A stretch of DNA of 35,101 bases from Lachnospiraceae bacterium (GTDB taxonomy: Bacteria > Bacillota > Clostridia > Lachnospirales > Lachnospiraceae): assembly GCA_024683645.1 (NCBI GenBank), contig JAIKYA010000039.1:1-35101 (forward strand), in the 5' to 3' direction. Positions 3,878-19,485 of the stretch are shown here, piece by piece. Position 1 is the first letter of the stretch; each line of letters starts with the position of its first letter. Under the pieces are notes generated by a model, which ran no database searches, was not told where the DNA came from, and saw only the letters and a program-made list of their open reading frames with translations. Both the position numbers and the translations under genes were made by a program.

Positions 3878-5692
3878 TCACAGATCAGGATGTTCGCCGG
3901 ACCAGCCGCGTTCGGGCAGACATGAGAGCATCGACATGTCATCGTCCGAAATGCTGAAGCCGAAAACATCGAGATTTTCTTTCATTCGCTCCATAGCCGA
4001 AGCCTTGGGGATCACCGGTATGCAGCGCTGCAGAAGATAGCGCAGCAGTATCTGCGCATTGCTCTTCTTATACTTCGCTGCAAGAAGTGATACGAGCGGG
4101 TCATTTATCACCCTTGCTCTTCCGAGCGGACTCCATGCCTGTGCGAGTATCCCTTCCTTCTTAAGATAAGCAAGCGCATACTCCTGCATATATCCGACAT
4201 GCAGCTCCAGCTGGTCTGTCATCGGCTTTATCCTTGCTGTCTCAAGCAGCGGCCTTATATGATGCGGCAGGAAATTGGAAAGGCCTATCGCTCTCACCCT
4301 TCCCTGCTCATACAGTTCCTCCATCAGCGCCCAGCTTTCCCTTACTCCGTCTATCCATGCAGGATCATTCTTATCAGCCTTCGGCCAGTGTATCAGATAC
4401 ATATCAAGATAGTCTGTCTTAAGCCTCTTACATGATGCCTCAAAGCTGGCAAGTGTCTTCTCGCGGCCCAGGTCCGAAGGCCATACTTTACTGCACAGAA
4501 ACAGTTCTTCTCTTGCGATCCCGTATTCCCCGATCGCATTTCCTATCTGTTCCTCATTATCATAAAAACTTGCCGTATCGATATAACGATAGCCCGCGTC
4601 AAGAGCATCCTTTATGGTCTCCTCTCCTCCTTTTGTAGCGAGATATGAACCGTAACCGACTGCCGGTATCACCACTCCGTTATCCAGCACGAATTCCCTG
4701 CGTTCCTCAGTAAAACCTGACAGGTCAAGTATGCGGTCAAGCAGATGCATGTTCTTAAGTGAAAACTCCTCGCTGATATGAGGCTTTGCCCCGTTTCGTA
4801 TACAGTCGTTCATCTGCTCGAGTTCCAGACTGTAGTTTGAGGATGCAGTGAGCTTTTCCCTGTGTGCTATCCTCTCGCCCTTATCATTTTTGACCCATAC
4901 GCTGAACTCAAGCTCGCCTTCCTGATTGTATTCCACATCCGAACGTATATAGCCCTTTGAGCCGTGTATAAACAGCCTGTCATATCTGTCACAGCTATCG
5001 ATGCCAAGTGCCATACCGGCATTTAAAGATGCCCTTGCACCATTCTCAAAACCTATAAGCGCCGATGCCATATGATCGACTTTTACACTGTCAAGCTCTG
5101 CATCGGCTTTTACATAGGCAATGGGAGAATCTATGAGCGATAGTATCATGGTCGTACAGTAACAGCCAACGTCCAGTATGCCTCCGCCGCCGTATTCCTT
5201 ATGCAGTCTGAAATCCTCGGAATAGTCCTGTGTGATGAATGCGGTATCGATATAATCGATACTGCCGATCTCACCGGATGCCGTGATCTTTTTCAGTGCT
5301 TCCACATAAGGGCTGTGCAGATAAGCATAAGCTTCCATAAGGATCACGCCGTTTTCCTTCGCTGCCGCAAACATACGCTTCATCTCTGCTTCGTTCATAG
5401 CCATCGGCTTTTCGCACAGAACATGCTTATGTGCCTTCAGCGCCGCCACCACCCATTCGCAGTGGATATGATTGGGAAGCGGCACATAGACCGCCTCGAC
5501 TTCGGGATCGTTCAAAAGCGCATCATAACCCTCATAAGCTTTTTTAAACCCGAAACGTTCCTTAAACTCTTCCGCCTTTTTCAGGCTTCTTCCCGCAATG
5601 GCATACAGTTCACAGCCCCCGGCTTTCTGCATACCCGGTATGGTACAGCCTGCCGCTATACCTGCAGTACCCAACACACCCCATTTAACCAT
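3878..5692 (-). CDS. Fusion of Gfo/Idh/MocA oxidoreductase and aldo/keto reductase
   Basis: A 604-residue protein joining two NAD(P)-dependent enzymes of different folds. Residues 1-330 form a Gfo/Idh/MocA oxidoreductase: Rossmann start WGVLGTAGIA and the EKP motif (94-96, catalytic-type Lys95). Residues about 333-604 form a complete aldo/keto reductase with tetrad Asp372, Tyr377, Lys402 and His435, plus the GLSNF and IPKAS segments. Each half is close to the usual length of its family, and they are joined directly without a linker or stop. The likely role is two linked redox steps on a sugar or polyol; the substrate is unknown. Start ATG 5692 has GGAGG upstream; an in-frame start at 5761 would overlap the end of the lipoprotein gene. 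Gene and PHP neighbour probably form one unit. Confidence 0.87.
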   Translation of the reverse strand: MVKWGVLGTAGIAAGCTIPGMQKAGGCELYAIAGRSLKKAEEFKERFGFKKAYEGYDALLNDPEVEAVYVPLPNHIHCEWVVAALKAHKHVLCEKPMAMNEAEMKRMFAAAKENGVILMEAYAYLHSPYVEALKKITASGEIGSIDYIDTAFITQDYSEDFRLHKEYGGGGILDVGCYCTTMILSLIDSPIAYVKADAELDSVKVDHMASALIGFENGARASLNAGMALGIDSCDRYDRLFIHGSKGYIRSDVEYNQEGELEFSVWVKNDKGERIAHREKLTASSNYSLELEQMNDCIRNGAKPHISEEFSLKNMHLLDRILDLSGFTEERREFVLDNGVVIPAVGYGSYLATKGGEETIKDALDAGYRYIDTASFYDNEEQIGNAIGEYGIAREELFLCSKVWPSDLGREKTLASFEASCKRLKTDYLDMYLIHWPKADKNDPAWIDGVRESWALMEELYEQGRVRAIGLSNFLPHHIRPLLETARIKPMTDQLELHVGYMQEYALAYLKKEGILAQAWSPLGRARVINDPLVSLLAAKYKKSNAQILLRYLLQRCIPVIPKASAMERMKENLDVFGFSISDDDMSMLSCLPERGWSGEHPDL

Positions 5693-5710
5693 AAACCTAC
5701 CTCCATATAT

Positions 5711-5739
5711 AAAAGACCACAAGGTCCATCCCCGTGGTT
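5711..5739 (-). terminator. Weak hairpin after the exosortase operon
   Basis: Minus strand ACCAC/GTGGT stem (5738-5734 with 5720-5716) followed by CTTTTATAT, directly after the lipoprotein stop. The stem is short, so termination may be partial. Confidence 0.35.
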
Positions 5740-7917
5740 TTATTTTAGTTCGCCGAAACACTCCTGCATTATATAATACGATTCCTTCAGCCGCTCATGA
5801 AAACGAACGCTGTTCCAGTCATCCCAGGTATATTCGGCACTCACCGAACGATCTCCGGCTTTTACACAGCCGATGTAGATCGCTTCTATCTTTTCTCCGA
5901 CTCCGAGCCGTTTATTGCTCCAGAAATCACCTTCCACCGTTTTTGTGGATGGATCCCTGAAATTAAGCAGTGCCCAGGGTATCCTGATCTCAAGGAATTT
6001 ACCTGTGAAATTAAAATCCGTCAGAGGATCGTATCCTTCCGAAGCGGGATCGCTGATCCCTTTTTTCAGCTTGCCCGTCTCATATCTTTCCGCTCCTCTT
6101 TCCTCTCCCGTGGTCGGTATGGTGAACGGCTTGTTCAGGCACAGATATATCGGTGTAAAGATGTCATTATCCTCTTCCCTGTATTTTTTCCACTCCAGCC
6201 TGTCATCCATGTATCTGTACATAAATGCATAACGGTCATAATAGCTGTGATTATAAATATGGCTGTTGCTGGCTCCGTCTATATCTATCACAAAATCGAC
6301 ATCACGGTCGAATACGGAACTGCCGTAAACACTGCTGCCCGACAGCGGCGTAACATCGATGGGCAGGTATAGATGCGCTGCCGCGATCCCTTCCTTCTCA
6401 AGCTGCACAGCTAAATAGAGATAACGTTCATCATGCTTTGCCGATAATCTGATATCCTCTTCTTCGTATATCACGTCTTCTTCCGTCCAGTCATCTTTTT
6501 CACCGTCTATATTTACGATGAAACCGTTTTCGCCCGGATCGAAAGCCAGCAGTCCGAAACTCTGCTCGCTGGTCTGTATATCCGACCAGAAGGGACGCCT
6601 GCCTGCATCCGAATAGTCCATGGTATTCCAGGTACGCTTGAACCATTCATCCTGCCAGGCAAATACCAGTCCGCCTGCGCAGCCGCACTCGTGGATATCT
6701 TCTGCCATATGTTTAAGTGCTTCTCCCTGCTGCTTCTCATCAAGCGCACCCTGATTGTAACCGCTGTAGGGATTGACATGTGTGCAGCCTCTGGAAGTCG
6801 GCACACCGAATTCCGCAATAAGAACAGGTATGTTATGTATGGACATCAGATCTTTGAGATAAGCCTCATAAGTATCGATCTCACCGTTCTCGTCACGGTA
6901 ATCCACATAATCCTGCTGCAGTATCATATACTCGGGATAGTAGGGATATACATGATATGAGGCAAAGATCCCCGCCGAAAAACTCTCCCTTAAATGGAAA
7001 CGCTCAACATTCATTTCCACGGCATCCTCTATATCATAGAGCGGCTCACCGGGATGAGACAGCTCATCGGCAGTCTGCCAGTTGGCCCAGCTTAAAGGCC
7101 TCTGCATCTTATACTCCTGAAGCTCATAGCTTACCACCCGGTCACCGAACTCGCAGAGAAATGCATCAAAAGGCTGCACCTCATCATCGGTATACAGATA
7201 GTTCCCTTTATAACAGGTTTTATCGGGATTTCGCATATTCGTAGTCTTTATAAAATACGCATCCGACTCTATACCGAGTATCCAGCCGAGCACATATTCG
7301 GAAATGTCGCAATTGTATACGCCGTAAGCCTTTCCCACACGTTTTTCCACGGAGCCCTTGCCGTGGATGATATCTATCTGTTCCTTTGCTTCGGCAACAG
7401 CATCTTCCAGAACATCGAAAGCATCCCCGCTCGCTTCTATCATATCTTCGTCATACCATACGCCCATGATCAGATAGAGCTTGTCATCCGACACCCTGTT
7501 GTATTCGTAAAGAGCATTGTAAAATGCAGGCATCATCGTAGTATAGATACGTATGGTATTGCAGTTCATCTTTGAAATGTCTTCGAACCAGTCGAAATAA
7601 ACAGACTCGGGCACTGCCAGTTCGCCCGGAAAACTTCCCGGATAACCGGAACCGACATTCACCCCGTTTAAATATGTTCTTACGAACTCAGATCCGTTAT
7701 ATATCTTAAAACAGCCGTCCTCCGCCTTGAATGCCATATCAGAACCGGAATAGGTATCATGGTAGAGCGGCTGTTTCCATGCATCGGGAAGACTTTCGGT
7801 TTCGGTGCCGAAATGAGTTTCATTCCCCATCGGGATCTCTGTTGCTTTTTCCCACGGCATACTGCAGGAACATAAGAATATAAATACCAGCGCTGAAAAA
7901 ACCGTCAGCTTCCTCAT
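5740..7917 (-). CDS. Lipoprotein with glycoside-hydrolase-like TIM barrel and CBM9/DOMON-like domain
   Basis: A 725-residue exported lipoprotein, the last gene of the exosortase operon. The N-terminus MRKLTVFSALVFIFLCSC is a lipoprotein signal with a probable lipid-modified Cys18. Residues about 70-440 resemble a clan-A (GH2/GH5/GH72-like) barrel: NTIRIY after a first strand, Glu217 in GIESDA as possible acid/base, HVYPYYP, and Glu369 in LIAEFG as possible nucleophile. From about residue 475 a domain starting NIDGEKDDW looks like a family-9 carbohydrate-binding or DOMON fold and recalls the ITIDGNFSDW start in the secreted protein of the same operon. It probably remodels or transfers a surface glycan; family and activity are inferred. 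Start ATG 7917 overlaps the preceding stop (ATGA). Confidence 0.72.
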   Translation of the reverse strand: MRKLTVFSALVFIFLCSCSMPWEKATEIPMGNETHFGTETESLPDAWKQPLYHDTYSGSDMAFKAEDGCFKIYNGSEFVRTYLNGVNVGSGYPGSFPGELAVPESVYFDWFEDISKMNCNTIRIYTTMMPAFYNALYEYNRVSDDKLYLIMGVWYDEDMIEASGDAFDVLEDAVAEAKEQIDIIHGKGSVEKRVGKAYGVYNCDISEYVLGWILGIESDAYFIKTTNMRNPDKTCYKGNYLYTDDEVQPFDAFLCEFGDRVVSYELQEYKMQRPLSWANWQTADELSHPGEPLYDIEDAVEMNVERFHLRESFSAGIFASYHVYPYYPEYMILQQDYVDYRDENGEIDTYEAYLKDLMSIHNIPVLIAEFGVPTSRGCTHVNPYSGYNQGALDEKQQGEALKHMAEDIHECGCAGGLVFAWQDEWFKRTWNTMDYSDAGRRPFWSDIQTSEQSFGLLAFDPGENGFIVNIDGEKDDWTEEDVIYEEEDIRLSAKHDERYLYLAVQLEKEGIAAAHLYLPIDVTPLSGSSVYGSSVFDRDVDFVIDIDGASNSHIYNHSYYDRYAFMYRYMDDRLEWKKYREEDNDIFTPIYLCLNKPFTIPTTGEERGAERYETGKLKKGISDPASEGYDPLTDFNFTGKFLEIRIPWALLNFRDPSTKTVEGDFWSNKRLGVGEKIEAIYIGCVKAGDRSVSAEYTWDDWNSVRFHERLKESYYIMQECFGELK

Positions 7918-10394
7918 GCCACACCTCCGGTCCGTCTCAGTTCCTCCAGCTCCTTTCTCCTCTTCCTGTTCCTCTCCACGACAGTAACCGCGATCACAAG
8001 TCCCAGCAGTATGATGACTCCTGCGACACACCACAGCACACCGGAGAGTACATACGGTTCCTGCATATATATGACGGTATGTCCTTTGTCCACGTGAACC
8101 AGTCTGTTCACACTCTCAAAGCCTTCGCCGGTAAACATATCGTGCATTGCGATCGTAGTGTCCACATTATCGTAATCGGAATCGATCTCGATACGGTCAT
8201 TACCGTATTCAACCTTTATGGGAACCGTCTGCCTGAGCGGCATCTGACCGATCTCCATCTTGAACAGTTCGGTAAGTATGGGGGTCACCGATCTGTCCTT
8301 GGTCAGTGCATAATGGTATGTCAGGTTGATAGCAAGGACCATGATATTATCATTCTTTACGGAACCGTAAAAATCAAGGCTGACACCGTCTTCACGCGTT
8401 CTCGCATAAGTCTTGTCAAGGCCTGTCACATATACCGTACGCCATGTCGTATACCCCTGGGGGAACAGATCCGTATTAATGATACCCCAGGTCGCTGTCT
8501 CCAGCTCCGGATAGCCGTTCGAGAATATGACATCATGAGCGGTAACTCCCAGAAACTCTCTTTTCTTTGAAACCTCATCTTCCGGTATGCCGTCCGCAAG
8601 TATAACTACACGCACGCCGTTCTCGGCAAGAGTTGTCAGCAGTTCTTCCGCTGCCTTCTTGTCTTCATAGGTAAAACCGTTTAAGTAAATGGTCTTATAC
8701 TTTGACAGTTCTTCATAGGTATAGTCATTGATGTTGGTAGATTCACGCTCTTCCACGGTAGGGAAATCCAGACTGACCATACCGGCTCCGCTTCCTATGC
8801 CGATAGCCGAAAAGTCGCTGAGCACACCGAACTGCCCTTCAACATTATGGTGGTACAGCCTGTAATCTTCATTCATATCCACCAGATTATATCCGCTGCG
8901 GGACGCCGCCGCATCTATCTCTCCCACGGCATCTTCATCCCAGCTGACCGGTTCCATCCAGATGATCACGCTGTCATTACCCAGCTCCAGACATCTGTCG
9001 AAAAGATAGGAAAACTGTCCGCCCGAATATGACTTATCCAGCTGCGTTATATTATATGCGTTTCTGGCACTTCTGTAGTCGGAACCGTAGGTTCCCATCA
9101 GAGGTACATCATAAGCCGATACAAGGAATGATCCGTCGGCCCCCAGGTCCTGCAGATCCATCAAAGCCAGTCTCTGTCTGGTGATATTCTGTGCTTTTTT
9201 GATCAGGGTATCTTCTGCCATCTTCTCCAGTCTGATATCCGCCCCGTCTCCGTCCCCTGCAAGCAGCATCATCGAAGGGATCGCATCCAGTGCCAGTACC
9301 ACCAGCACTCCGACGATGACGGGCCTTTTCAGTGTTTTCCAGGTAAGCAGTGAAAAAAGGATGAGACAGGATGCCAGCGGCAGGTAATTCAGCATTCCCA
9401 GTTTACCCGCTCCGGGTAAAAGCCTGATCAGCGGATAGGCCATGCTCGTTGATGCAAAGAATATGATCCCCGCCGTTCCGAAACCTGCCCCGCTCTTTTT
9501 ATTTGAAGCTATCAGTCCGAAGATTATCAGCAGGAAAAATGCCAGTCCGAAGTAATATCCGTGATCCTCGGACAGCACCCTCAGCAAGGGGTTCAGACTC
9601 TTAAAACCATTCTGAAAGTAGAATGAAAGATTTTCCAGGTCGGCGGTAACTGCATTTCTTCCCTTGGAATAAGATGCCAGCCACAGCCCCGATATCATTG
9701 CCGATGCGATGTAGGAGATCAGCATCAGGCCGAAGCGTCTGAATGTGTGATTAAGCACGGAATAAAGCACAAAGTAAACCGCAAAAGTAAGTGCGGTGAT
9801 AAGTGCAAATACCGGATCAGACAGTGTCAGCACGGAAAAAAGCAGACACACGGCTATAAGCTCATGTCTCCCCAGTTCTTTGGTCCTGGTCAGATAGCTT
9901 TCCGTAAGATGTATCAGCCAGGGCAGCAATACGAAGCAGAACATCCGCTGAAGATTGCCGTCTTCATAGCTTACCTTCATACAGGACGGAGCAAAGAACC
10001 AGAGCAGTCCGAGAAAGCCTCCGAGAAACTGCCTGTTCCTTCTTTTTCCTATCATCATAAATGAGAATGCACCCGCAAAGAACATCAGACCGTTCCATAG
10101 AATGTAAGCCCCCAGCGGACTGCCCCCGCTGATGAACTGAAGTATTGCATAAATATATGCGGGTATGGGTGCCCAGTATCTGAAAGGTGATACGCCGTTG
10201 TACCAGAACCTGTCGTAGAGCGGCCATAATATGCCCTTTTTCAGTGCATCATAAGCTGTACCGCCTTTGTAGATGTGATTCATCACATCCTCTCCCAAAG
10301 GGTAGGCCGGATTGGCGACGATCACTGCCATCAGCACTACAGCAAGTATGATATAGACCACTGTCCATATGACTGTCTGCAGGTGCTTCTTCAA
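7914..10394 (-). CDS. Large polytopic membrane protein, PTPS-related family (PF10131-like)
   Basis: An 826-residue membrane protein. Residues 1-400 contain about ten to eleven hydrophobic segments. The first loop carries PLGEDVMNH, then WYNGVSPFRYWAP, resembling the acidic first loop of GT-C glycosyltransferases that use polyprenyl-phosphate sugars. Residues about 420-770 form an extracytoplasmic domain; the part around ADGIPEDE recalls a class-I glutamine-amidotransferase-like fold without visible catalytic residues. A last TM helix (about 785-807) ends in a basic cytoplasmic tail. The family is called PTPS-related because it occurs with PTPS-like proteins, and it sits directly after one here. 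The start is TTG at 10394, overlapping the upstream stop (TTGA) with GGAGG nine bases before it. Likely role: transfer or modification of a lipid-linked sugar outside the cell (inference). Confidence 0.75.
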   Translation of the reverse strand: MKKHLQTVIWTVVYIILAVVLMAVIVANPAYPLGEDVMNHIYKGGTAYDALKKGILWPLYDRFWYNGVSPFRYWAPIPAYIYAILQFISGGSPLGAYILWNGLMFFAGAFSFMMIGKRRNRQFLGGFLGLLWFFAPSCMKVSYEDGNLQRMFCFVLLPWLIHLTESYLTRTKELGRHELIAVCLLFSVLTLSDPVFALITALTFAVYFVLYSVLNHTFRRFGLMLISYIASAMISGLWLASYSKGRNAVTADLENLSFYFQNGFKSLNPLLRVLSEDHGYYFGLAFFLLIIFGLIASNKKSGAGFGTAGIIFFASTSMAYPLIRLLPGAGKLGMLNYLPLASCLILFSLLTWKTLKRPVIVGVLVVLALDAIPSMMLLAGDGDGADIRLEKMAEDTLIKKAQNITRQRLALMDLQDLGADGSFLVSAYDVPLMGTYGSDYRSARNAYNITQLDKSYSGGQFSYLFDRCLELGNDSVIIWMEPVSWDEDAVGEIDAAASRSGYNLVDMNEDYRLYHHNVEGQFGVLSDFSAIGIGSGAGMVSLDFPTVEERESTNINDYTYEELSKYKTIYLNGFTYEDKKAAEELLTTLAENGVRVVILADGIPEDEVSKKREFLGVTAHDVIFSNGYPELETATWGIINTDLFPQGYTTWRTVYVTGLDKTYARTREDGVSLDFYGSVKNDNIMVLAINLTYHYALTKDRSVTPILTELFKMEIGQMPLRQTVPIKVEYGNDRIEIDSDYDNVDTTIAMHDMFTGEGFESVNRLVHVDKGHTVIYMQEPYVLSGVLWCVAGVIILLGLVIAVTVVERNRKRRKELEELRRTGGVA

Positions 10395-10879
10395 TTTACG
10401 CTTCCTCCCATGTCCTCCAGTATGTCGTCAAGCACGGCATCTATCACGTTATGCATTACTTCCTCGGTATACTCTTCCAGATGAAAACTGTCAAAAGCAT
10501 CATTGAAATTGATGATGTAGCTTCTGGTCGGTGTCTCACTGCCTTCTATGGAGAGCAGCCTTCCTCCTATCTTTTTCACCAGTTCCTGTATGCCGTTGCC
10601 GAAAAACTCCACCATGTTCTCGAGTGTGGGAGCTATGGCATCAAAAGGATCCACGTCGTTCAGTACCCTGTTCTGGTAAGGCCTGAAAAAAGCTTCAATG
10701 GCTTTCTCATATATATTGAACTCCACAAAGCTCTCCCGTCCGATCAGGATATTCAGGGTAAACTCCCAGGTATGCGGATGGGTCTCACCTCTCTTATTGT
10801 TAAAGATGACCCAGTGGTTACCGTTAAGATAAAACTTCAGCCTGTATTCCTGAAATAATCTGTTCTCTATGTTTTTCAT
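10391..10879 (-). CDS. PTPS-like protein A (XrtG-system 6-pyruvoyl-tetrahydropterin-synthase-related)
   Basis: A 162-residue cytoplasmic protein with the PTPS/QueD fold pattern. The three zinc histidines appear as NHW (His22) and HPHTW (His34, His36), and the substrate-anchoring Glu of the ExPT motif is kept in SETPTRSY. The catalytic residues are not: there is no Cys before the HxH pair, and the LDHHYLND segment of QueD reads YQNRVLND here. It therefore should not catalyse pterin synthesis; it may bind a pterin or other small molecule, or act as a scaffold. Families of this type (TIGR03112-like) are found beside XrtG. ATG 10879 overlaps the stop of the sensor gene (ATGA), and its own stop overlaps the next start. 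Confidence 0.78.
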   Translation of the reverse strand: MKNIENRLFQEYRLKFYLNGNHWVIFNNKRGETHPHTWEFTLNILIGRESFVEFNIYEKAIEAFFRPYQNRVLNDVDPFDAIAPTLENMVEFFGNGIQELVKKIGGRLLSIEGSETPTRSYIINFNDAFDSFHLEEYTEEVMHNVIDAVLDDILEDMGGSVN

Positions 10880-11958
10880 ACGTTCCGCTCCCTAAGCACT
10901 CTCACATATTCGTGTATATCGCCGTACTCGGGCGTCCACATCTCCACACTCCTGAGTGTTACGTTTATCCCTATAATGGGTCTCAGTCTCTCATAGGTCT
11001 GGGCTCTCTCACTTCTTAGGAATACGAGAAGTATCTGACCCGCAACATTTGCATCCTCATAAGCGCGGTCGCCTGAGAGTCTGAACCGTATCACGCTGCG
11101 GTCAAGCATCAGCTGGGCTTTTGCAAGGAATTCTTCTTCATTTGCGCAGTTGAAAAGTGCAAATGTAACAGGCGTTATTCCCTTGCCCTGTATCCTGTCC
11201 AGGAAGTCGTCAAGTATGCTCTCCTGGAAAAGTGTACGCTGCATATCATAAGTATTCTTAACGAGCAGTTTGTCATTCAGCTTGTTTATGCTGGCGTTGA
11301 GTCCGGTGATGACCTTTTCCCGCTCTGTGCTTTCTTTCTTTTCCTGTCCGATCCTGTGCGCGAAGATCATCGCTTCAACAACCATTATCAAAACCGAAAG
11401 TGCATAGCAGATAACAAGGTTTATCTCGGAACCAAGGAAAGAGTTATTATCCAGAAATACATCCTTGTTGGTAAGCAGGCACAGCCTGTAGGTGTTTTCT
11501 CCGTACTCAAAGATAACACCGCTGGCCACATAGTTCTTCTGCTCTATGCTTATCTGTCTGTGCGTCACGTGATTGAGCATCAGCTCATCCAGAAACTTCT
11601 GCGCACTCTCGGATATATAGTAGGTTCTGGTAGTAAAACCTTTGTATTTGTTGGTCTCCGTTACGTCCTTGACAAAGAGCATCGCCTCGTTTTTGGAGAA
11701 GGTCCAGTATTTGTTGGTAGAGGCATCAAGTGTTCCCAGTATCTCCTCTATGATCGATGCATCATCACGGTTGTCTTTGATATATATCTGATCCAGAACC
11801 AACTGCACATATGCGTCCTGCTGGTCAGCACATACTTCGATGATACCGTTTTCAAACTGGTGAACGAACAAAAGCCCCAATGCCAGAAGAATCAGACCCA
11901 GCATGGTAGCTATGGTCGCCACCGATGCGAAATAATGTTTTTTTACAAGCTCTTTCAT
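10876..11958 (-). CDS. Two-TM sensor protein with degenerate GGDEF-like cytoplasmic domain
   Basis: A 360-residue membrane protein. TM1 (about 10-33) and TM2 (about 179-200) enclose a ~145-residue extracytoplasmic domain that could sense a ligand. After TM2 comes a coiled-coil stretch (205-245) and then a ~90-residue domain with the alternating strand/helix pattern of nucleotide cyclases (PVTFALFNCANEEEF, then ILLVFLRS). No GGDEF signature is present, so it should not make cyclic di-GMP. It is embedded in the exosortase operon, with a TAATG overlap to the glycosyltransferase and ATGA overlap to PTPS-like A, and a GGAGG ribosome site. A role in sensing the state of the exported glycan or protein and controlling the glycosyltransferase would fit but is inference. 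Confidence 0.65.
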   Translation of the reverse strand: MKELVKKHYFASVATIATMLGLILLALGLLFVHQFENGIIEVCADQQDAYVQLVLDQIYIKDNRDDASIIEEILGTLDASTNKYWTFSKNEAMLFVKDVTETNKYKGFTTRTYYISESAQKFLDELMLNHVTHRQISIEQKNYVASGVIFEYGENTYRLCLLTNKDVFLDNNSFLGSEINLVICYALSVLIMVVEAMIFAHRIGQEKKESTEREKVITGLNASINKLNDKLLVKNTYDMQRTLFQESILDDFLDRIQGKGITPVTFALFNCANEEEFLAKAQLMLDRSVIRFRLSGDRAYEDANVAGQILLVFLRSERAQTYERLRPIIGINVTLRSVEMWTPEYGDIHEYVRVLRERNV

Positions 11959-13331
11959 TACTCCTCCTGATAATTAACGAGTTCCCTGAATTTTCTGAAG
12001 AGACCCAGCGGCTTTGAAAAATCATCTTTAACGACAGCCATGAAGGCATGTCCCTCCTCGCTTAAGTTTCTCGTCTTCCACGAAGAATCCGTACCTATAC
12101 TGTTTATTATACCGGCAAGCCTTATAAAGAATACCGCAAAATTGAAGAACGGAAGCAGTACTATGACCCACCAGTGTTTAGAATAATAGTCCCTCAGAAC
12201 CGGAAATTCTCTCATGAAATAATGGACCGTAAAGAAATACATGTATCCCACGATGATGTAAATAAAGAAGATGAATCCCGTGGAGAGCAGTATCATTCTG
12301 GAAGAATAATGCATCATCAGCATACACAGCAGAGCCAGATACCATATGGCTCTCGGGAAAGCAAAGGTGTGGTCGTAGAGCAGAGTCCTGACACTGACAT
12401 CCATAAAGCTCTTTCCAAAATTGCCTTTTGAATCGAGGAACTGTCTTGCCACCTCGAGCGAACCTCGCTGCCAGCGCTGTCTCTGGGTATACAGCTTGTT
12501 CACGCCTTCAATCGGATCGACATAGAACAGCGCGTTCTCGCATATCTCCACTCTTTCCTTCTGTATATAACGCATCTGGAAAGTGATGTGGGTATCCTCG
12601 CAGATAGTATTCGTATTATAAAGTCTGGATTTTAGTATGGCTGATTTTCTGAATGCCGAAAAAGCACCGGATAAGGTATATACGGCGTTCAGCTCGGAAG
12701 CATAGCTCCTGCCCGCAAGAAACGCCTGGGCATATTCCATAAACTCGATCTCCCTGAAAAGCCTCGGGAAAAAATCGCGAAACTGCAGTATGAGCCTGGG
12801 CTCCGTAAGCACCGCACCCGTCATACAGTTAAGATCGGGCCTGTTTTCAAACTTGTCTACCAGATTGGTCAGGGCATGCGGTTCCAGCACGCCGTCACTG
12901 TCAAGGTTTATGATATACTTTCCCTCACTGTTGTACAGTGCCAGGTTCAGCGCCCTTGATTTTCCCTGCTGGGCGTTCAGCCACTGCATGTTCAGCTCGG
13001 GAAATACGCGCTGGCATTCCCTGTATATCTCAAAACTGTTATCCTTACCCTGGTTGTTCACCAGATATATCCTTATCTTGTCCGAATCATAAGTGGAATT
13101 CTTGATGGAACGTATGCACGCCGAAAGCGTCTGCGCCGAATTATAAACCGGGATTATCAGCGATATCTCCGGATACACCTTCGGTTTTACCAGCTTCTTC
13201 CCTGCCTTTGCCCGTCTGATGAGCAGCAGGAAAAAGCCTCCGAAAGCAGGCACTATCTCCATCAGCACAGGGATGATGATCCATGCGCCCCAGAATATAA
13301 AAGAATGCAGAAAACTGTTAAGTGCTCTCAT
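11958..13331 (-). CDS. Membrane family-2 glycosyltransferase, exosortase G-associated
   Basis: A 457-residue processive-type GT2 enzyme. An N-terminal TM helix (about 9-38) precedes the catalytic domain, which has ISLIIPVYN (57-64), DSD (144-146, metal/nucleotide binding), the acceptor ED motif (245-246) and QRQRW (283-287), the set used by cellulose- and hyaluronan-synthase-like enzymes. Three or four TM helices (about 320-415) follow. Length and context match the family TIGR03111 named for its link with XrtG. It probably builds a polysaccharide or oligosaccharide on a lipid or protein carrier at the membrane; the sugar is unknown. The start ATG 13331 overlaps the XrtG gene by 14 bases and has only a weak ribosome site, so its translation probably depends on coupling to XrtG. 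Confidence 0.88.
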   Translation of the reverse strand: MRALNSFLHSFIFWGAWIIIPVLMEIVPAFGGFFLLLIRRAKAGKKLVKPKVYPEISLIIPVYNSAQTLSACIRSIKNSTYDSDKIRIYLVNNQGKDNSFEIYRECQRVFPELNMQWLNAQQGKSRALNLALYNSEGKYIINLDSDGVLEPHALTNLVDKFENRPDLNCMTGAVLTEPRLILQFRDFFPRLFREIEFMEYAQAFLAGRSYASELNAVYTLSGAFSAFRKSAILKSRLYNTNTICEDTHITFQMRYIQKERVEICENALFYVDPIEGVNKLYTQRQRWQRGSLEVARQFLDSKGNFGKSFMDVSVRTLLYDHTFAFPRAIWYLALLCMLMMHYSSRMILLSTGFIFFIYIIVGYMYFFTVHYFMREFPVLRDYYSKHWWVIVLLPFFNFAVFFIRLAGIINSIGTDSSWKTRNLSEEGHAFMAVVKDDFSKPLGLFRKFRELVNYQEE

Positions 13332-13911
13332 AGTTGAATATCCCGACTTTCATCTTCACTATCTGCGGTTTCGTAAAGACATAGAAATACAAAAGTACCG
13401 ACAGCACATAGAAGAAGATGCGTCCTATATAGGTATGCGCCATATAATAAAACCCACTTCCGCCGAAATGGATTATCTCACATATCAGAGTGATGCGGAG
13501 AGCATTTGCGATAAGGATATACAGTGTACCGAGGATAGATACCAGTATCTTTTCCTGCTTTGTATAAACCTCAAAGAAAAGGAGCAAAGCCAGAAATGCC
13601 ATTATCTCCAGTATACCGGAGCACTCAAAATCTATCTGCAGGGTCATCGCGCCTGCAGGCGTATCAACAAATATCGTACCGTATTTGAAATATGGAACGA
13701 AGGTTCCCGTAGCTCTTCCGATAAATCCCGCTAAAGCAGATACGCCCTGTGCCAGAGGTTCCGTCAGCACCGGGCGTATAAACACCATCATCAATATGAA
13801 CAGGCCGGCACTGCCCCAAAAGAATCTCCATGCTAGTATCTTTGCTTTGTTGAGGACATGGAGCACGTACAGCCAAACCAACGTCCCGATGATTGCGATC
13901 AGCGGGTACAT
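13318..13911 (-). CDS. xrtG: Exosortase family protein XrtG
   Basis: A 197-residue integral membrane transpeptidase/protease of the exosortase/archaeosortase superfamily. The three signature residues are all present: Cys97 in FECSGILE, Arg139 in NALRIT and His159 in AHTYIGR, placed in or beside successive TM helices as in the family. About five to six hydrophobic segments are visible. Exosortases recognise a C-terminal tail (motif, TM helix, basic residues) on exported proteins, cleave it and probably attach the product to another molecule. The gene lies 12 bases after a secreted protein with such a tail and overlaps the partner glycosyltransferase. AAGGAG precedes ATG 13911. The Gram-positive family is known from comparative genomics; I know of no direct biochemical proof of its reaction. 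Confidence 0.92.
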   Translation of the reverse strand: MYPLIAIIGTLVWLYVLHVLNKAKILAWRFFWGSAGLFILMMVFIRPVLTEPLAQGVSALAGFIGRATGTFVPYFKYGTIFVDTPAGAMTLQIDFECSGILEIMAFLALLLFFEVYTKQEKILVSILGTLYILIANALRITLICEIIHFGGSGFYYMAHTYIGRIFFYVLSVLLYFYVFTKPQIVKMKVGIFNYEST

Positions 13912-13923
13912 GATCCGTTCTCC

Positions 13924-15564
13924 TTACAGCAGCTCTGCTGTTTTCTTTTTTCTGAGTATAAGGGCTCCCCCTGCTACTGCCATGCTTAAAAGTATGCCTG
14001 CGACAGGTCCCGATGAAGCACCTGCTGTCTGCAGCCACTTATCACCTATACGTTCATACTTGACTTCGAGGAGCTGCATATCCGTCTCCTGCAGTCCGAA
14101 GAGATCGGCGATCTTGCCCAGCTCCAGATACCATTCAGCCTCATCTCTTGAAGCTGTCTTGGTGATCATCATCTTACCGTATACTTCATTACCGAGTATA
14201 TCGGCCAGCTTCTTCTGATCCTGTCCCGACCAGCCTCTGTGATAAGTAATGTAATACTCATAAGTTCCTTCTGCGAGACGGTTGGTGTCAGGATTCCATA
14301 TAACGTTTCCTTCCTCGTCAGCCGTAACCAGTCTGAACTCAAACCAGAGATTGTTATCACCGTTGATGCGGAGTACAACACCGTAAGTCATCTCGTCGCC
14401 GTGCTCGGTAAGATGAGTGCTCATCTTGGTATATACATGGCCGTAAAGCCTGTTGCCCTGGGTATATAAAGCGCCCTCGCCGTCGGCAACTTCCTTCCAT
14501 GTGCCGGGAGTTGCATACTGTATGAGAGTGTGCGGATAGTATGTCCAGTCTCCGTAAAGGCCGTCATAAACTATGCCGTCGAATTCCTTTGAATGGTCCT
14601 CATGGCTCGTATCAACGATACCCGTTATATAGGGATCGACCATGTAGAAGCCGAAACCATAGGTCGAATTGTTAAGAGGGAGCTGTGATGCCGGGAAAGA
14701 TATCTCCCACTCACCGCCCTGATCCCACTCACCGGTGGTATAGGCAACCTGCGCACCTTCTATACCGCTGACACTGTATACAGCGCCGTTATTCTCTGAA
14801 TTAAGCTGAAGCACCTTCCTGTATCCCAGGTCGGAGATCAGTTCGAAAGTACCGTTCATATTGGGGCCCGACCATGAAGCGGTACCGCAACCCGTATCTC
14901 TTATATAAACGTATACCATATCATCCTGCTGGACTACTGCAACCGCAGTCACTCCGCAGTAGAAATCACTTGCGCCTGCGGGTGTTTTCGACACTGCATC
15001 CCAGTCCGAAAAATTACCGTCTATCGTGATACCGGTAAATACTCCGGTCGGCTCGTCATCTTTAACCGTCTCTTCGGCTTCCTTTTCGCTCACACCGTCA
15101 TCTTCAAGCACTTCCGGTGTGGTTATCTCAGGAACGTCATCGCCGCCTTCGACCTCAACATCATTATTCTCGGGAACCGTCTCCCAGGGGAAGCACTCTT
15201 CGGAATCCTCGGATACCGTCTCTTCCTCGACCGGCTCTTCCACTGTATCCTCATTAACGGTCTCGGTCTCCGGAGCCTCTTCGCTCACATTCTCGGGAGC
15301 GGGATCAGAAACCGGAACCTCCTCTTCTGTAACCTCAGGAGCCTCTTCAACAGGTGCCGGCTCTTCGGTGACCGCAGTGTTGTCATCAGCACTCTCTGTC
15401 TCTTCCGCTGTCACATCCTGCTCGGCAGAAGTCTCCTCGTTCTCTGCGGCAGTGCTTTCTTCCACGCTGTCAGCAGCCGCATAAACGGGCGCAGGCAATG
15501 AAGCCGTGAGCATCATCACGCTTCCTGCCATCGCTATTAATTTCTGAATGAATTTCCTTTTCAT
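13924..15564 (-). CDS. Secreted acidic protein with DOMON-like domain and C-terminal sorting-like tail; candidate XrtG substrate
   Basis: A 546-residue exported protein. The signal peptide ends near PVYA (about residue 29). Residues about 33-180 are a low-complexity Glu/Thr/Val/Asp/Pro linker. ITIDGNFSDW then opens a CBM9/DOMON-like beta-sandwich, and GIVYDGLYGDW opens a second related segment. The C-terminus has a short GASSGP motif (about 515-520), a hydrophobic helix (521-537) and RKKK (538-541), which is the tripartite layout of exosortase or sortase substrates; there is no LPXTG. It matches what is called a Firmicu-CTERM tail, as I recall the naming. Its position directly before xrtG makes it the obvious substrate. 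ATG 15564 has GAGGAG upstream; an in-frame start at 15594 falls inside the preceding gene and is unlikely. Confidence 0.82.
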   Translation of the reverse strand: MKRKFIQKLIAMAGSVMMLTASLPAPVYAAADSVEESTAAENEETSAEQDVTAEETESADDNTAVTEEPAPVEEAPEVTEEEVPVSDPAPENVSEEAPETETVNEDTVEEPVEEETVSEDSEECFPWETVPENNDVEVEGGDDVPEITTPEVLEDDGVSEKEAEETVKDDEPTGVFTGITIDGNFSDWDAVSKTPAGASDFYCGVTAVAVVQQDDMVYVYIRDTGCGTASWSGPNMNGTFELISDLGYRKVLQLNSENNGAVYSVSGIEGAQVAYTTGEWDQGGEWEISFPASQLPLNNSTYGFGFYMVDPYITGIVDTSHEDHSKEFDGIVYDGLYGDWTYYPHTLIQYATPGTWKEVADGEGALYTQGNRLYGHVYTKMSTHLTEHGDEMTYGVVLRINGDNNLWFEFRLVTADEEGNVIWNPDTNRLAEGTYEYYITYHRGWSGQDQKKLADILGNEVYGKMMITKTASRDEAEWYLELGKIADLFGLQETDMQLLEVKYERIGDKWLQTAGASSGPVAGILLSMAVAGGALILRKKKTAELL

Positions 15565-15574
15565 TTTTTTCTCC

Positions 15575-15892
15575 TCACATATAAGTCGAAACAATGTAGG
15601 TTCTGAGGGGATTCTCTCCTATCTCAAGCCTTTCCATATCAACATGGTTAAAATCCAGCCTGTCCCTGATATCATCAAAAAGTCTGTTTCCGATATTCTC
15701 TATACTGGCTTCGCCGCCGAACTCGGGCATATCGTTCAGATACCTGTTTTCGTAATGCCCCAGCACCTCCGCCGCGTATTTCTCTATCTCTTCAAACTTT
15801 TTGCCTTCTTCATCCCTGGGTCTCACATAAGTTGTGATCTCCAGTGTATGCGAATGTTCGTGCTCACGGTTGTTGTCTGCACTGTGTGTCAT
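15575..15892 (-). CDS. PTPS-like protein B, start uncertain
   Basis: A PTPS/QueD-fold protein, first gene of the exosortase operon. Zinc histidines fit THS and HSH; YLNDMPEF matches the QueD YLND segment and the anchoring Glu is in GENPLRTY. As in PTPS-like A, the catalytic Cys is missing and the residues before YLND read YENR instead of LDHH. From ATG 15892 the product is 105 residues, but that ATG has no ribosome site and the frame upstream still reads like the first family strand (VYCFHYYLP). The open frame continues to ACG-GCT-ACG-GTT at 15952, just after an in-frame TGA at 15953-15955. An ATG-to-ACG change, a non-AUG start or a small frameshift would explain this. The stop lies ten bases before the secreted-protein gene. 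Confidence 0.7.
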   Translation of the reverse strand: MTHSADNNREHEHSHTLEITTYVRPRDEEGKKFEEIEKYAAEVLGHYENRYLNDMPEFGGEASIENIGNRLFDDIRDRLDFNHVDMERLEIGENPLRTYIVSTYM

Positions 15893-15961
15893 CGGCAGAT
15901 AATAATGAAAACAATATACTGTTTGAGCTGAATTCTGATTAACCGTAGCCGTTCACCCGCT

Positions 15962-15975
15962 TGTAAGCGTTTTCA
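15962..15975. promoter_or_regulatory. CcpA catabolite-responsive element (cre box)
   Basis: TGTAAGCGTTTTCA matches the cre consensus TGWAANCGNTNWCA at every defined position and on both strands. It lies about 35-48 bases downstream of the predicted transcription start of the exosortase operon, where bound CcpA would block elongation. This predicts repression of the operon by preferred sugars. Confidence 0.75.
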
Positions 15976-16016
15976 CACTTGAGGATACTATATTTATCGA
16001 CACTTATACCAAAAAA

Positions 16017-16045
16017 ATTATAGAATAGTTAACAAAACTTGGCAA
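16017..16045 (-). promoter_or_regulatory. Sigma-A promoter of the exosortase operon
   Basis: Minus-strand -35 TTGCCA (16045-16040), exactly 17 bases, -10 TATAAT (16022-16017). This is the best promoter match in the window. Predicted start is near 16010, giving a short leader that contains the cre box. All eight operon genes follow without another clear promoter or strong terminator. Confidence 0.78.
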
Positions 16046-16372: not shown

Positions 16373-18610
16373 TCAGATCTTTACTGTCTTTGTGCATCTG
16401 ATATCGGCGCTGGAGGCTCCGATATAGATCACCATATCGCCGCTCATGACTTCCCATTTCATGCTTTCGTTTGAGAAGTGGGAGAAGGCTTTCTCATCAA
16501 GTTTAAACTTGAATGTCTTTGTCTGGCCGGGTTTTATTTCAGCCTTGTCAAAGCCTTTCAGTTCCTTGACCGGATTGCCCGCAGATACATTCTTCTCTCC
16601 GACATAGAGCTGAACGGTCTCCTTGGCGCTTACGTGGCCGGTATTCTTTACCTGTACACTTACGGTAAAGGCTGTCTTTCCCTTCACTTTCTCGACCTTC
16701 AGGCCGCTGTACTTAAAGTCTGCATAAGAGAGACCGTGGCCGAAGGGGAACTGTACCTTCACGTTTTCCTTTTCATAATATCTGTAGCCGACAAATACGC
16801 CTTCGTTGAAGTTCTGGGTCAGCCGCGCGTTCATACGCTTCTTCTCGGCTGCGGTCAGCTTTCTTCCGGGGTAATCGCCGTACTTTGCAACGGGCGTATC
16901 CTTAAAGTCTGCAGGAAGGCTCTCAGGCAGTTTGCCCGAAGGAACGATACTTCCGCTGATCACTTCCGCAAGGGCAGCTCCGCCTTCCATACCGTTATAG
17001 CTCATCCACAGTATTGCCTTTGCCTTATCCATCCAGGCACTCATATCAACAGGCGAACCGGATACCATAACGACAGCCGCATTGGGATTTACTTCCAGGA
17101 CAGCCTTTATCAGCTCATCCTGACCATAGGGCAGCTTTAAGCTTTCCTTGTCTTTTCCTTCAACGTCAAGGTCATGATCAAGTCCTCCGACTATCACTAC
17201 CTTGTCATATTCTTTTGCCAGGGCAACAGCTTCGTCCCGGAGCTTCTTTATCAGCTTCTTCTCTTCTGCGGTAAAGCCGCCCTTCTTTCTCTGCTCCCTG
17301 TTGATCTCCTCGATATTAACGCTGCCTTCCTGCCAGTTCACTATATCCGCTGTCTTTCTCGGAACGTAATATCCTCTCGCATACTTTACTTCCGTATTGC
17401 CGCCGTATTCATTGGCCAGTCCCAGAAGCGGAGTCTTCTCGTAAAGCGCCTTTATCTCGGCACTTCCGCCGCCCGCAGCATGCATCCTGTTCGCGTTGTC
17501 ACCGATCACTAAAAGTCTCTGTGTCTCGGAAGGCTTGAAAGGAAGGAGTTTTTTATCATTCTTGAGCATGACCACCGCTTCCTCTGCGGTCTTTCTTACA
17601 AAAGTATGGCATACATCGGCGTTTACACAGCCCGGATCCCTGTCGGGAACCCTCACTGCCTTTGCAGTCACTTTTCCGTTCTTCTGCTTTTTCAGTTCTA
17701 TCTCTATGAGGCGGACTCTCAGCATGAATCTTAAGATATTGCGAACCATCTCATCTACGCGTTCTTCCGATATCTCGCCTTTTTTGATGGCTTCCTTCAG
17801 AGGGTTTGCAAGATAATACTCATCAAAATCCGGAGTAACGCTCATCTCTATGTCCAGTCCGCTTTCGGCCGCAAGCTTTGTATCGTGTACAGCGCCCCAG
17901 TCGCTTACCACCAGACCGTCATACTTCCATTCCTTACGGAGTATGTCTGTCAGCAGGAACCTGTTCTGGGAACCGTGCACACCCCGCACCAGATTGTATG
18001 AGCCCATAAGTCCCCAGGTCTTTGCACGCTTTACAGCCGCCTCAAACCCCGGAAGATATATCTCGCGGAGTGTCCTTTCATCCAGTTCAACATTTACGAA
18101 AAGTCTCTCATATTCCTGCGCATTGCAGGCAAAATGCTTGACACAGGCAGATACGTCATTCTCCTGTATGCCTTCGATCAGAGGTACCACCATCTCGGAT
18201 ATAAGATAGGGATCCTCGCTCATATACTCAAAGTTACGTCCGCAGAGCGGATTTCTCTTTATGTTTATACCGGGTGCCAGGATCATATCCTTGCCGCGTC
18301 CTCTGGCCTCCCTGCCGAGTACTTCGCCGGAAGTCTTTGCCAGTTCCCTGTTCCAGGTTGCGGCTATAGCGGAATTACTGGGCAGATAACTTGTCGAATC
18401 CGCAGTGGTGCCTATGGTCACCCATTTGTCAGGTTCAAATTCGTTTCTTACACCCATGGGGCCGTCATTCATGCTTATCCTGGGAATTCCCAGTCTCGGT
18501 ACACCGCCCGATCTGAAGAATTCAGCGCTGTGTATCATGCTTATCTTTTCGTCAAGTGTAAGCTCTGCAAGCAGTGCTTCTATCTTCTGTTCCCATTCCC
18601 TGTTTTTCAT
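16373..18610 (-). CDS. Glycoside hydrolase family 3 (beta-glucosidase type)
   Basis: A 745-residue enzyme without a signal peptide, so it acts in the cytoplasm on imported oligosaccharides. Residues about 15-300 form the GH3 N-terminal barrel: NDGPMGVR, KHFACN, and the nucleophile Asp237 in LVVSDWGA. The GH3 C-terminal domain follows (about 335-600, with LLVIGDNA and VMVSGSP), then a fibronectin-III-like domain (about 640-745, QLYVGEKN). This three-domain layout is typical of bacterial beta-glucosidases and beta-xylosidases; the precise sugar cannot be told. GGAGGAG precedes ATG 18610. The upstream gap holds its own promoter with a palindrome that could be an operator. Confidence 0.92.
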   Translation of the reverse strand: MKNREWEQKIEALLAELTLDEKISMIHSAEFFRSGGVPRLGIPRISMNDGPMGVRNEFEPDKWVTIGTTADSTSYLPSNSAIAATWNRELAKTSGEVLGREARGRGKDMILAPGINIKRNPLCGRNFEYMSEDPYLISEMVVPLIEGIQENDVSACVKHFACNAQEYERLFVNVELDERTLREIYLPGFEAAVKRAKTWGLMGSYNLVRGVHGSQNRFLLTDILRKEWKYDGLVVSDWGAVHDTKLAAESGLDIEMSVTPDFDEYYLANPLKEAIKKGEISEERVDEMVRNILRFMLRVRLIEIELKKQKNGKVTAKAVRVPDRDPGCVNADVCHTFVRKTAEEAVVMLKNDKKLLPFKPSETQRLLVIGDNANRMHAAGGGSAEIKALYEKTPLLGLANEYGGNTEVKYARGYYVPRKTADIVNWQEGSVNIEEINREQRKKGGFTAEEKKLIKKLRDEAVALAKEYDKVVIVGGLDHDLDVEGKDKESLKLPYGQDELIKAVLEVNPNAAVVMVSGSPVDMSAWMDKAKAILWMSYNGMEGGAALAEVISGSIVPSGKLPESLPADFKDTPVAKYGDYPGRKLTAAEKKRMNARLTQNFNEGVFVGYRYYEKENVKVQFPFGHGLSYADFKYSGLKVEKVKGKTAFTVSVQVKNTGHVSAKETVQLYVGEKNVSAGNPVKELKGFDKAEIKPGQTKTFKFKLDEKAFSHFSNESMKWEVMSGDMVIYIGASSADIRCTKTVKI

Positions 18611-18630
18611 TCCGCTCCTCCTATCAGCTC

Positions 18631-18644
18631 CGGGATCGTTCCCG
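18631..18644 (-). promoter_or_regulatory. Small hairpin in the GH3 leader
   Basis: CGGGA-ACGA-TCCCG in the 5' untranslated region, about ten bases before the GGAGGAG ribosome site. It might tune translation; there is no T-tract. Confidence 0.3.
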
Positions 18645-18659
18645 CATTTTCAGAATTTT

Positions 18660-18689
18660 ATTATATGCCGCACTATACCGGCAATCCAA
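18660..18689 (-). promoter_or_regulatory. GH3 promoter with dyad operator in the spacer
   Basis: Minus-strand -10 TATAAT (18665-18660), weak -35 TTGGAT (18689-18684), spacer 18. The whole spacer (18683-18666) is the dyad TGCCG-N8-CGGCA, which is well placed for a repressor that blocks polymerase. Confidence 0.5.
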
Positions 18690-18734
18690 AGGCTTTTTGC
18701 CCCGTTCTGCCCGTTCTTTGTCATAAATTGCGGA

Positions 18735-19475
18735 TCAGCTTCTTTTATGCTTAAGTCTTACGCCGGTAAGGTAGATGACGCTCTTCATGTAACTGATTAT
18801 GAACTTTACAAGCTGCCTCTTGGATTCCCCGTACATCCTCTTTTCAAAAGTGATCGGGACTTCACGTACCCTGAATCTTTTCTCTTCATCCTGTTTATCA
18901 AGTTTCAGATAAAGAAGCACTTCCTGCAGCACATCATAGTTTTTGCACTTAAGCTTATCAACGACTCTTTTAAGTCTTACTGTCCGGTACATACGGTAAT
19001 CGGTGGACATGTCCTTTGCCTTTATTCCAAGCACCACTCCGTATACGGTATTTAAGATGTGAGACATCACCTTTGACGTAAACGCATCGTTGCTGACTCC
19101 GCCCTTAACATATCTGGAGCCTATCACCACATCTGCCTTCTCTCCCACAAACTTTGAATAGATATCCGGAATATATTTCGGATCATGGCTCATATCCGCA
19201 TCCAGTATCAGAAATGTCCTGTAGGCAGCTTCCCTTATACCTTTCTTAAAAGCTTCGGCAAAGCCGGGCAGTTCCTGGTTATAATATCTCGCTCCGTTTT
19301 CCGAACAGATCCCGGCACTGTCGTCCGTCTGCTTCGGGCCGTCCACTACCACCACCTCATAAGCTTCGCCGGTAGCTTCAAGCTTCTCCTTTATCATGGG
19401 GATCAGCACCTTCAGATTTTCCCCTTCTCCGTAAGCCAGCAGCACAGCACTTATGCCTTTTTTCAGCGTTTCCAT
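18735..19475 (-). CDS. Family-2 glycosyltransferase, DPM1/polyprenyl-phosphate sugar synthase-like
   Basis: A 246-residue GT2 enzyme of the soluble dolichol/polyprenyl-phosphate mannosyltransferase type: ISAVLLAYGEGENL at the start, VVVVDGP, then DADMSHDP (metal and nucleotide-sugar binding) and GSRYVKGG. The C-terminal region has no clear TM helices, unlike the longer two-domain homologues. It probably moves a sugar from a nucleotide donor to a polyprenyl phosphate, or a related acceptor. Such a lipid-linked sugar could feed GT-C type enzymes like the polytopic protein of the nearby exosortase operon, but that link is inference. ATG 19475 has GGAGGG upstream, and the gene begins ten bases after the GH43 stop. 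An in-frame start at 19559 would lie inside GH43. Confidence 0.82.
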   Translation of the reverse strand: METLKKGISAVLLAYGEGENLKVLIPMIKEKLEATGEAYEVVVVDGPKQTDDSAGICSENGARYYNQELPGFAEAFKKGIREAAYRTFLILDADMSHDPKYIPDIYSKFVGEKADVVIGSRYVKGGVSNDAFTSKVMSHILNTVYGVVLGIKAKDMSTDYRMYRTVRLKRVVDKLKCKNYDVLQEVLLYLKLDKQDEEKRFRVREVPITFEKRMYGESKRQLVKFIISYMKSVIYLTGVRLKHKRS

Positions 19476-19485
19476 TTTTCCCTCC

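Follow-up and report, generated by a model that had tools for sequence, protein, structure and literature searches.

An exosortase G operon of a Lachnospiraceae bacterium as a possible synthase-type machine for one surface polysaccharide with a dedicated membrane-held protein

Introduction

The closest described relatives of the locus analysed here are the exosortase G (XrtG)/Firmicu-CTERM systems, including that of L. plantarum (LP_RS09090-09075), in which the families TIGR03110, TIGR03111, TIGR03112 and TIGR04145 stand in a conserved order that our locus shares. L. plantarum strains that induce interferon and self-aggregate over-express XrtG-system transcripts, a statement that in the cited part of the report concerns transcript levels only (PMC12854382), and in L. 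brevis an XrtG-associated GT2 is listed in a table (PMC8951740). Among the literature matches listed, from a search that mostly excluded subscription journals, none reports a product or a linkage for an XrtG system.

Other systems share parts of this architecture. The Listeria pssA-E genes likewise combine a PgaC/IcaA-like GT2 with a degenerate-GGDEF protein, but in Pss the I-site is functional and a BcsB-like protein is encoded as well, whereas the corresponding protein of our locus has lost its I-site; XrtG goes unmentioned in the cited parts of that paper (PMC4125290). In the gts operon of L. acidophilus a GT2 also lies beside a degenerate c-di-GMP-type protein, although that receptor is a degenerate EAL protein, unlike ours (PMC6123363). 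PEP-CTERM/EpsH systems resemble the present locus in uniting an exosortase, a C-terminal tag and polysaccharide genes (PMC1569441), but have a median of eight substrates against one in our locus, whose host is Gram-positive. New here, compared with the described XrtG systems, are the recognition of gene E as a sensor with a decayed GGDEF fold, the addition of a lipoprotein (H) with a GH157-like GH-A barrel, and the fusions of GT2 to an LtaS/OpgB-like domain.

The operon and its surroundings

The stretch of DNA analysed (the window, 35,101 nt) is one entire contig of a Lachnospiraceae assembly of 3.1 Mb in 203 contigs (91% complete, 5.75% contamination), and its host is a gut bacterium, probably of rumen origin. 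Eight open reading frames lie head to tail on the minus strand from 15892 to 5740, in a region that reaches 16045 when the promoter is included:

16017..16045, minus strand: promoter-like TTGCCA-17-TATAAT, sigma-70-like, 11 of 12 consensus matches, the best of 17 matches
15962..15975, minus strand: candidate cre (CcpA) site, a perfect consensus match, between promoter and gene A
15575..15892, minus strand: A, PTPS-related T-fold protein 1 (TIGR03112, 83.4 bits, cut-off 69.35)
13924..15564, minus strand: B, Firmicu-CTERM surface protein (TIGR04145, 103.7 bits, cut-off 50)
13996..14025, minus strand: tail motif of B, AGASSGPVAG, followed by a hydrophobic helix and RKKK
13318..13911, minus strand: C, exosortase G, XrtG (TIGR03110, 187.6 bits, cut-off 102.75)
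11958..13331, minus strand: D, XrtG-associated GT2 of the processive-synthase type (TIGR03111, 597.5 bits, cut-off 363.95)
10876..11958, minus strand: E, membrane sensor with an outside sensor domain, a coiled coil and a decayed GGDEF fold (GGDEF part about 10879-11247)
10391..10879, minus strand: F, PTPS-related T-fold protein 2 (TIGR03112, 126.4 bits, cut-off 69.35)
7914..10394, minus strand: G, PF10131 polytopic membrane protein, a probable GT-C type transferase (PF10131, 368 bits, cut-off 26.4)
5740..7917, minus strand: H, lipoprotein-like clan GH-A barrel (about 6529-7785) with a C-terminal beta domain
5716..5738, minus strand: terminator-like hairpin of 9 pairs, right after H

A and B are separated by 10 nt and B and C by 12 nt; C and D overlap by 14 nt, D and E by 1 nt, and E/F, F/G and G/H by 4 nt each. 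With no gap longer than 12 nt, the first-pass annotation, made from the letters before any search, was right to call an eight-gene operon with near-zero spacing. The hairpin after H closes this unit. Of the flanking signals, the promoter scan is no proof when taken alone, as it gave 17 matches in the region against 17.3 expected from shuffles, and terminator-like sites numbered 12 against 7.5 in shuffles. The pattern that we take to be the cre consensus matched three times on two sites in the window, against an expectation of 0.12, and a single one of 100 shuffles gave as many as 3. As a conserved regulator the site was rejected, since a perfect match is absent from the 17 related loci L031-L047; L031, a close relative, has a near match to this stretch at the gene start.

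The 5' end of A is abnormal in the present assembly, because the conserved N-terminal stretch stays in frame upstream of 15892 without an ATG, GTG or TTG. Relatives of A begin about 20 or more codons earlier with a normal start, and compared with L031 the window holds extra in-frame bases between 15892 and 16020, with a stop where the relatives begin. Next to the operon, a single reading frame at 3878-5761 joins a Gfo/Idh/MocA oxidoreductase to an aldo/keto reductase, and GH3, GT2 and GH43 genes on the same strand upstream (16373-20919) form a separate carbohydrate cluster.

The families proposed in the first-pass annotation were recovered by profile search, with TIGR03110, TIGR03111, TIGR03112 (for both A and F), TIGR04145 and PF10131 all above their curated cut-offs. 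E and H gave no NCBIfam match at E 1 and no Pfam match near cut-off.

Distribution and gene content

Co-occurrence was counted, on the same strand, in the 54 of 80 named loci with at least 4.5 kb before and at least 8 kb after XrtG; G was counted with a profile free of PTPS-fused seeds, plus score floors. F is present in all 54, D, G and B in 53 each, E in 52, A in 33 and H in 11, and in the one locus that lacks a separate B (L167) this gene is fused to XrtG. H, missing from 43 of these loci, lies outside the conserved core. The window had been called unusually complete, which holds for H alone; B to G are the usual set. The A-G order is common to 11 other loci of the genus except for losses at contig ends (L035 and L041 lack A, and L041 has a truncated G), while no neighbouring genes were recovered for L046 and L047. 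In L158 a broken XrtG locus was seen, in which a 177-aa reading frame (10575-11108) joins a GT2 start to a PTPS domain, without D proper, E or G.

Within the genus, 12 of the 35 genomes encode XrtG, and among 60 genomes searched an E homologue was found in exactly those 12, with one further weak match in a genome of the order (G003). In a sample of the order 6 of 295 genomes carry XrtG, 5 of them over cut-off, against none of 14 control genomes. Across 398 Bacillota genomes XrtG matched in 13 (9 over cut-off). TIGR03111, searched by scoring the best few candidates per genome, was over cut-off in 10, every one with XrtG adjacent, and in none of the 385 genomes without an XrtG match; the three XrtG genomes without it have the GT2 in two pieces beside XrtG (G340), XrtG at a contig end (G541) or a weak XrtG (G437). 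The first-pass annotation had named missing profile matches, or genes that never occur together, as outcomes that would speak against it; what we found is a match for each profile and genes that travel together. The named relatives are mostly MAGs of Lachnospiraceae and other Bacillota, many from the rumen, the nearest with 97% XrtG identity.

A polysaccharide synthase and its partners

Processive GT2 polysaccharide synthases carry the motifs DxD, (E)D and QxxRW. In D, D144-x-D146, D246 and Q283RQRW287 are invariant over 76 aligned rows, of which 75 also have E245, and among NCBIfam families PgaC/IcaA (123 bits) ranks directly behind the one to which D belongs. At 14 of the 80 loci the GT2 is 946-994 aa long. 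The second half of one of these proteins (L107:909-3866) matches Sulfatase PF00884 at 64 bits and, among PDB sequences, VP1736 and lipoteichoic acid synthases; the other 13 second halves are 42-71% identical to it over 469-511 columns. Within the 80 loci this LtaS/OpgB-like domain was never seen unfused. Enzymes of the OpgB/LtaS type transfer phosphoglycerol to glycans or lipids, and the fusion of such a domain to the GT2 indicates an exported polymer.

G had been noted as a possible GT-C enzyme, and its match to PF10131 makes this probable. The family belongs to the GT-C clan of Pfam and is listed there as of unknown function (PMC7801869). Several relatives of the operon include a DPMS-like GT2 and GtrA, by Pfam in L043 and, fused, in L166, and by eye in L160 and L165, with a similar-looking reading frame after G in L159. 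Such a pair is the usual polyprenyl-phosphate sugar supply for GT-C enzymes. The window operon itself has no DPMS or GtrA gene, and by analogy with its relatives G may draw on polyprenyl-phosphate sugars.

The glycosidase-like barrel that had been noticed in the lipoprotein H agrees with the predicted fold, which is of clan GH-A and closest to GH157 beta-1,3-glucanase. Compared with LaGH157, H has 17% identity over the aligned part and an extra C-terminal beta domain. In clan GH-A the placement of the two catalytic Glu residues follows a rule, and E217 and E369 of H are positioned as such a pair. Window H has no Pfam family; in its own family of 22 members, two match GH72 (best 6e-5) and four match GH113, weakly. 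Where H homologues occur elsewhere, a D-like GT2 lies alongside in 15 of 17 loci. A tandem H pair was seen in L035 (8345-10636 and 10655-12802), and in L044 a GH16 gene stands immediately upstream of A. H-family genes also occur in another recurring operon with a GT2 (L076-L092), apparently another polysaccharide system, where a scan of L079 adds VTC, CotH and HEAT (for CotH/VTC see PMC7112168).

Sensor and T-fold proteins

The first-pass annotation called E a sensor but did not recognise its make-up of an outside sensor domain and a decayed GGDEF fold, the latter predicted from structure and without A-site or I-site. PF00990 does not match window E and matches only one of 13 members, that of L043, which retains an RKSD I-site; the E of L160 has a GGDEF_2 match below cut-off. 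The RxxD I-site is absent from window E, and its aligned R and D occur together in L043 only (1 of 75 rows), a looser RxxD..R being found elsewhere in five other rows, the window not among them. From its fold E was expected to be a c-di-GMP receptor, an idea set aside for the window lineage, where the I-site is lost, and kept as a rival below.

A and F look like metal-binding T-folds without PTPS chemistry. The His triad is kept in 33 of 35 rows of A, and in F His22, His34 and His36 are kept in all 61 rows and Glu115 in 60. A true PTPS/QueD enzyme has a catalytic Cys, and no Cys is found among the conserved columns of the 61 F and 35 A rows. TIGR03367, the family of true PTPS/QueD, gives 22.4 and 18.1 bits for the two proteins against a cut-off of 89.25, and F has no PTPS match among PDB sequences. 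In five fusions (L044, L159, L167, L168 and L172) a PTPS domain occupies the place of the GGDEF part of E, and in eight loci (L042, L043, L045, L175, L177, L178, L180 and L182) a PTPS domain and PF10131 share one reading frame. Literature searches by family name found no publication on PTPS-like T-fold proteins in signal relay.

The substrate and XrtG

Both TIGR04145 matches in the genome fall inside the reading frame of B, and no second Firmicu-CTERM protein was found. Its C-terminus (...AGASSGPVAGILLSMAVAGGALILRKKKTAELL) has the Firmicu-CTERM layout of motif, helix and basic end, and the sorting-like tail noted in the first-pass annotation is present, in the form G-x-(S/P)-(S/T)-(G/A)-(P/A/T/V/M), near the end of 67 of 69 homologues. 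Of the remaining two, L118 reads GTSTYP, and in the fusion L141 the motif has an internal position. In XrtG, Cys97, Arg139 and His159, which we take to be the exosortase Cys, Arg and His residues, are all kept in 69 of 69 aligned rows. TIGR04145 is over cut-off in only 2 of the 398 Bacillota genomes against 9 for XrtG, which means that the substrate sequence changes more rapidly than that of the enzyme, and the profile was dropped as a phylum-wide marker.

The N-terminal region of B is acidic or Thr/Pro-rich and of low complexity, and a low-complexity N-terminus is also present in the B of L044. The B domain has no PDB match, and among 14 scanned members no two have a Pfam family in common; B as a carbohydrate-binding module was therefore not adopted, and sugar binding by B is a guess. 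The B domain and the C-terminal domain of H both start IDG..DW, but we do not group them into one family (2% in profile comparison; 20% and 8% with other sets).

Fusions of substrate and XrtG

The substrate and XrtG are found in one reading frame in three separate lineages, namely L141, L164/L167 and a deep clade, all from assemblies that are mostly MAGs:

L141:8448-10319: substrate-XrtG fusion with Cys
L164:437-1753: substrate-XrtG fusion with Cys
L167:9278-10567: substrate-XrtG fusion with Cys
L175:7014-8216: substrate-XrtG fusion, Asn for Cys
L182:6214-7416: substrate-XrtG fusion, Asn for Cys
L176:226-1428: substrate-XrtG fusion, Asn for Cys
L184, L186-L189 and L196: further loci with Asn-for-Cys fusions, nine copies in all from L175 on

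In L141 and L164/L167 the tail motif (AGASTGPIIG, GTSTGPVVG, GTPTGPVV) abuts the first membrane helix of XrtG and the Cys is kept, so that cleavage may persist there. In the deep clade Asn replaces the catalytic Cys in all nine fused copies (8 genomes); the Cys is kept in six of six unfused kin with the same family label, and also in the more distant L177, L178 and L180. Each of the six unfused kin has a separate upstream reading frame similar to the fused domain, with E values from 7e-28 to 5e-41 in five of them and 1.8e-10 in the sixth (G747). In an XrtG tree of 114 rows the three fusion groups fall apart, and the Asn fusions form a single clade (support 98/86) and hence count as one event. 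Profile comparison of the fused domain with the Firmicu-CTERM domain gave 72% over 17 columns and 32% with another set, which is only suggestive of homology. The GT2 still adjoins the Cys-less fusion in all four loci examined (L175, L176, L182 and L187).

A model for the operon and its rivals

With this in mind, we consider it somewhat probable that the operon is a synthase-type machine for one surface polysaccharide, with a dedicated protein B held at the membrane. The synthase-type polymer is suggested by the motifs of D, its PgaC/IcaA kinship and the LtaS-like fusions, by the GT-C clan of PF10131 and the DPMS/GtrA genes of relatives, and by the GH157-like H, the D-like GT2 beside H homologues and the GH16 of L044; the single B found in this genome and the three branches of B-XrtG fusions point to the dedicated, membrane-held substrate. 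According to this model, D would polymerise the glycan and push it through the membrane, G would attach sugars outside from polyprenyl-phosphate donors, and H, in the window lineage, would trim or rearrange the product. XrtG would process the AGASSGPVAG tail of B, whose domain would stay at the outer face of the membrane beside the synthase, via a lipid or XrtG, and unjoined to the glycan. E would sense an outside signal and pass it to the T-fold protein F and on to G, a relay for which the sensor-PTPS and PTPS-PF10131 fusions speak. What the analysis shows directly are families, motifs, conservation, fusions and predicted folds, from which export of a polymer, the sugar donors, the activity of H, the processing of the tail, the place where B is attached and the course of the signal are inferred.

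A first rival concerns the attachment of B. XrtG could cut B and join it to the glycan made by D and G, so that H would remodel a glycan-linked protein, much as the first-pass annotation had proposed. A transpeptidase role, with a tie to exopolysaccharide loci, has been proposed for exosortases (PMC1569441), and B and D are nearly always together; but a Cys-less XrtG, fused for good to its domain in nine of nine copies, cannot pass that domain to a glycan, its GT2 neighbour is retained nonetheless, and we found no sign of a glycan acceptor, which leaves this rival unlikely. The exported polymer and outside remodelling of that earlier proposal are favoured by the GT2 motifs, the LtaS-like fusions, the GH-A lipoprotein and the GH16 of L044, whereas its protein-glycan linkage gained no support, and the Cys-less fusions speak against it at least in their own clade. 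Control by c-di-GMP as in Listeria Pss, with E as the receptor, would suit the predicted GGDEF fold, the L043 homologue with its PF00990 match and RKSD I-site, and the 36 GGDEF matches in the genome, and degenerate-GGDEF receptors of the I-site type are described from Listeria (PssE) and B. cereus (PelD). We consider it improbable for the window, given that the I-site residues align in L043 alone, that the looser form never occurs in the window and that a PTPS domain can replace the GGDEF part altogether. Equally hard to favour is protein glycosylation, in which D and G would build an oligosaccharide for the N-terminal region of B: the low-complexity N-termini of B and of the B of L044 would offer a target, but the short substrates of L043 (207 aa) and L160 (235 aa) are almost without such a region, D has all the processive motifs, and the LtaS-like fusions and GH-A/GH16 partners suit a polymer.

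Returning to the membrane-held B, the fusions favour it over a glycan-tied B, as a Cys-less fused XrtG would be useless for passing B to a glycan and yet its neighbourhood is kept. If XrtG serves to hold the B domain at the membrane, fusion would substitute for this task and the loss of the Cys would follow. The argument is an evolutionary one and not a chemical one. One may thus speculate, and we do so tentatively, as we hold it possible but short of probable, that the role of XrtG is to anchor a surface domain at the synthase of the polysaccharide, with no release to the glycan, that fusion replaced this chemistry, and that in the Cys-less clade the protein has become a membrane scaffold, a pseudo-exosortase. 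The window lineage would arrive at the same end state through processing of the tail, with a lipid or the enzyme as anchor. Lipid-anchored substrates of haloarchaeal archaeosortases (PMC7157517) fit such a membrane-held B.

For the biology of the family, the locus bears on the attachment partner of XrtG, since here a single enzyme occurs together with a single substrate and a single synthase. The sensor-PTPS and PTPS-PF10131 fusions suggest a signal relay through PTPS-like T-fold proteins. Fusions that keep the catalytic Cys and fusions that lack it are natural mutants that separate a membrane-held from a glycan-linked substrate, and as the system is scattered across gut and rumen Lachnospiraceae, other Bacillota and L. 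plantarum, it is testable.
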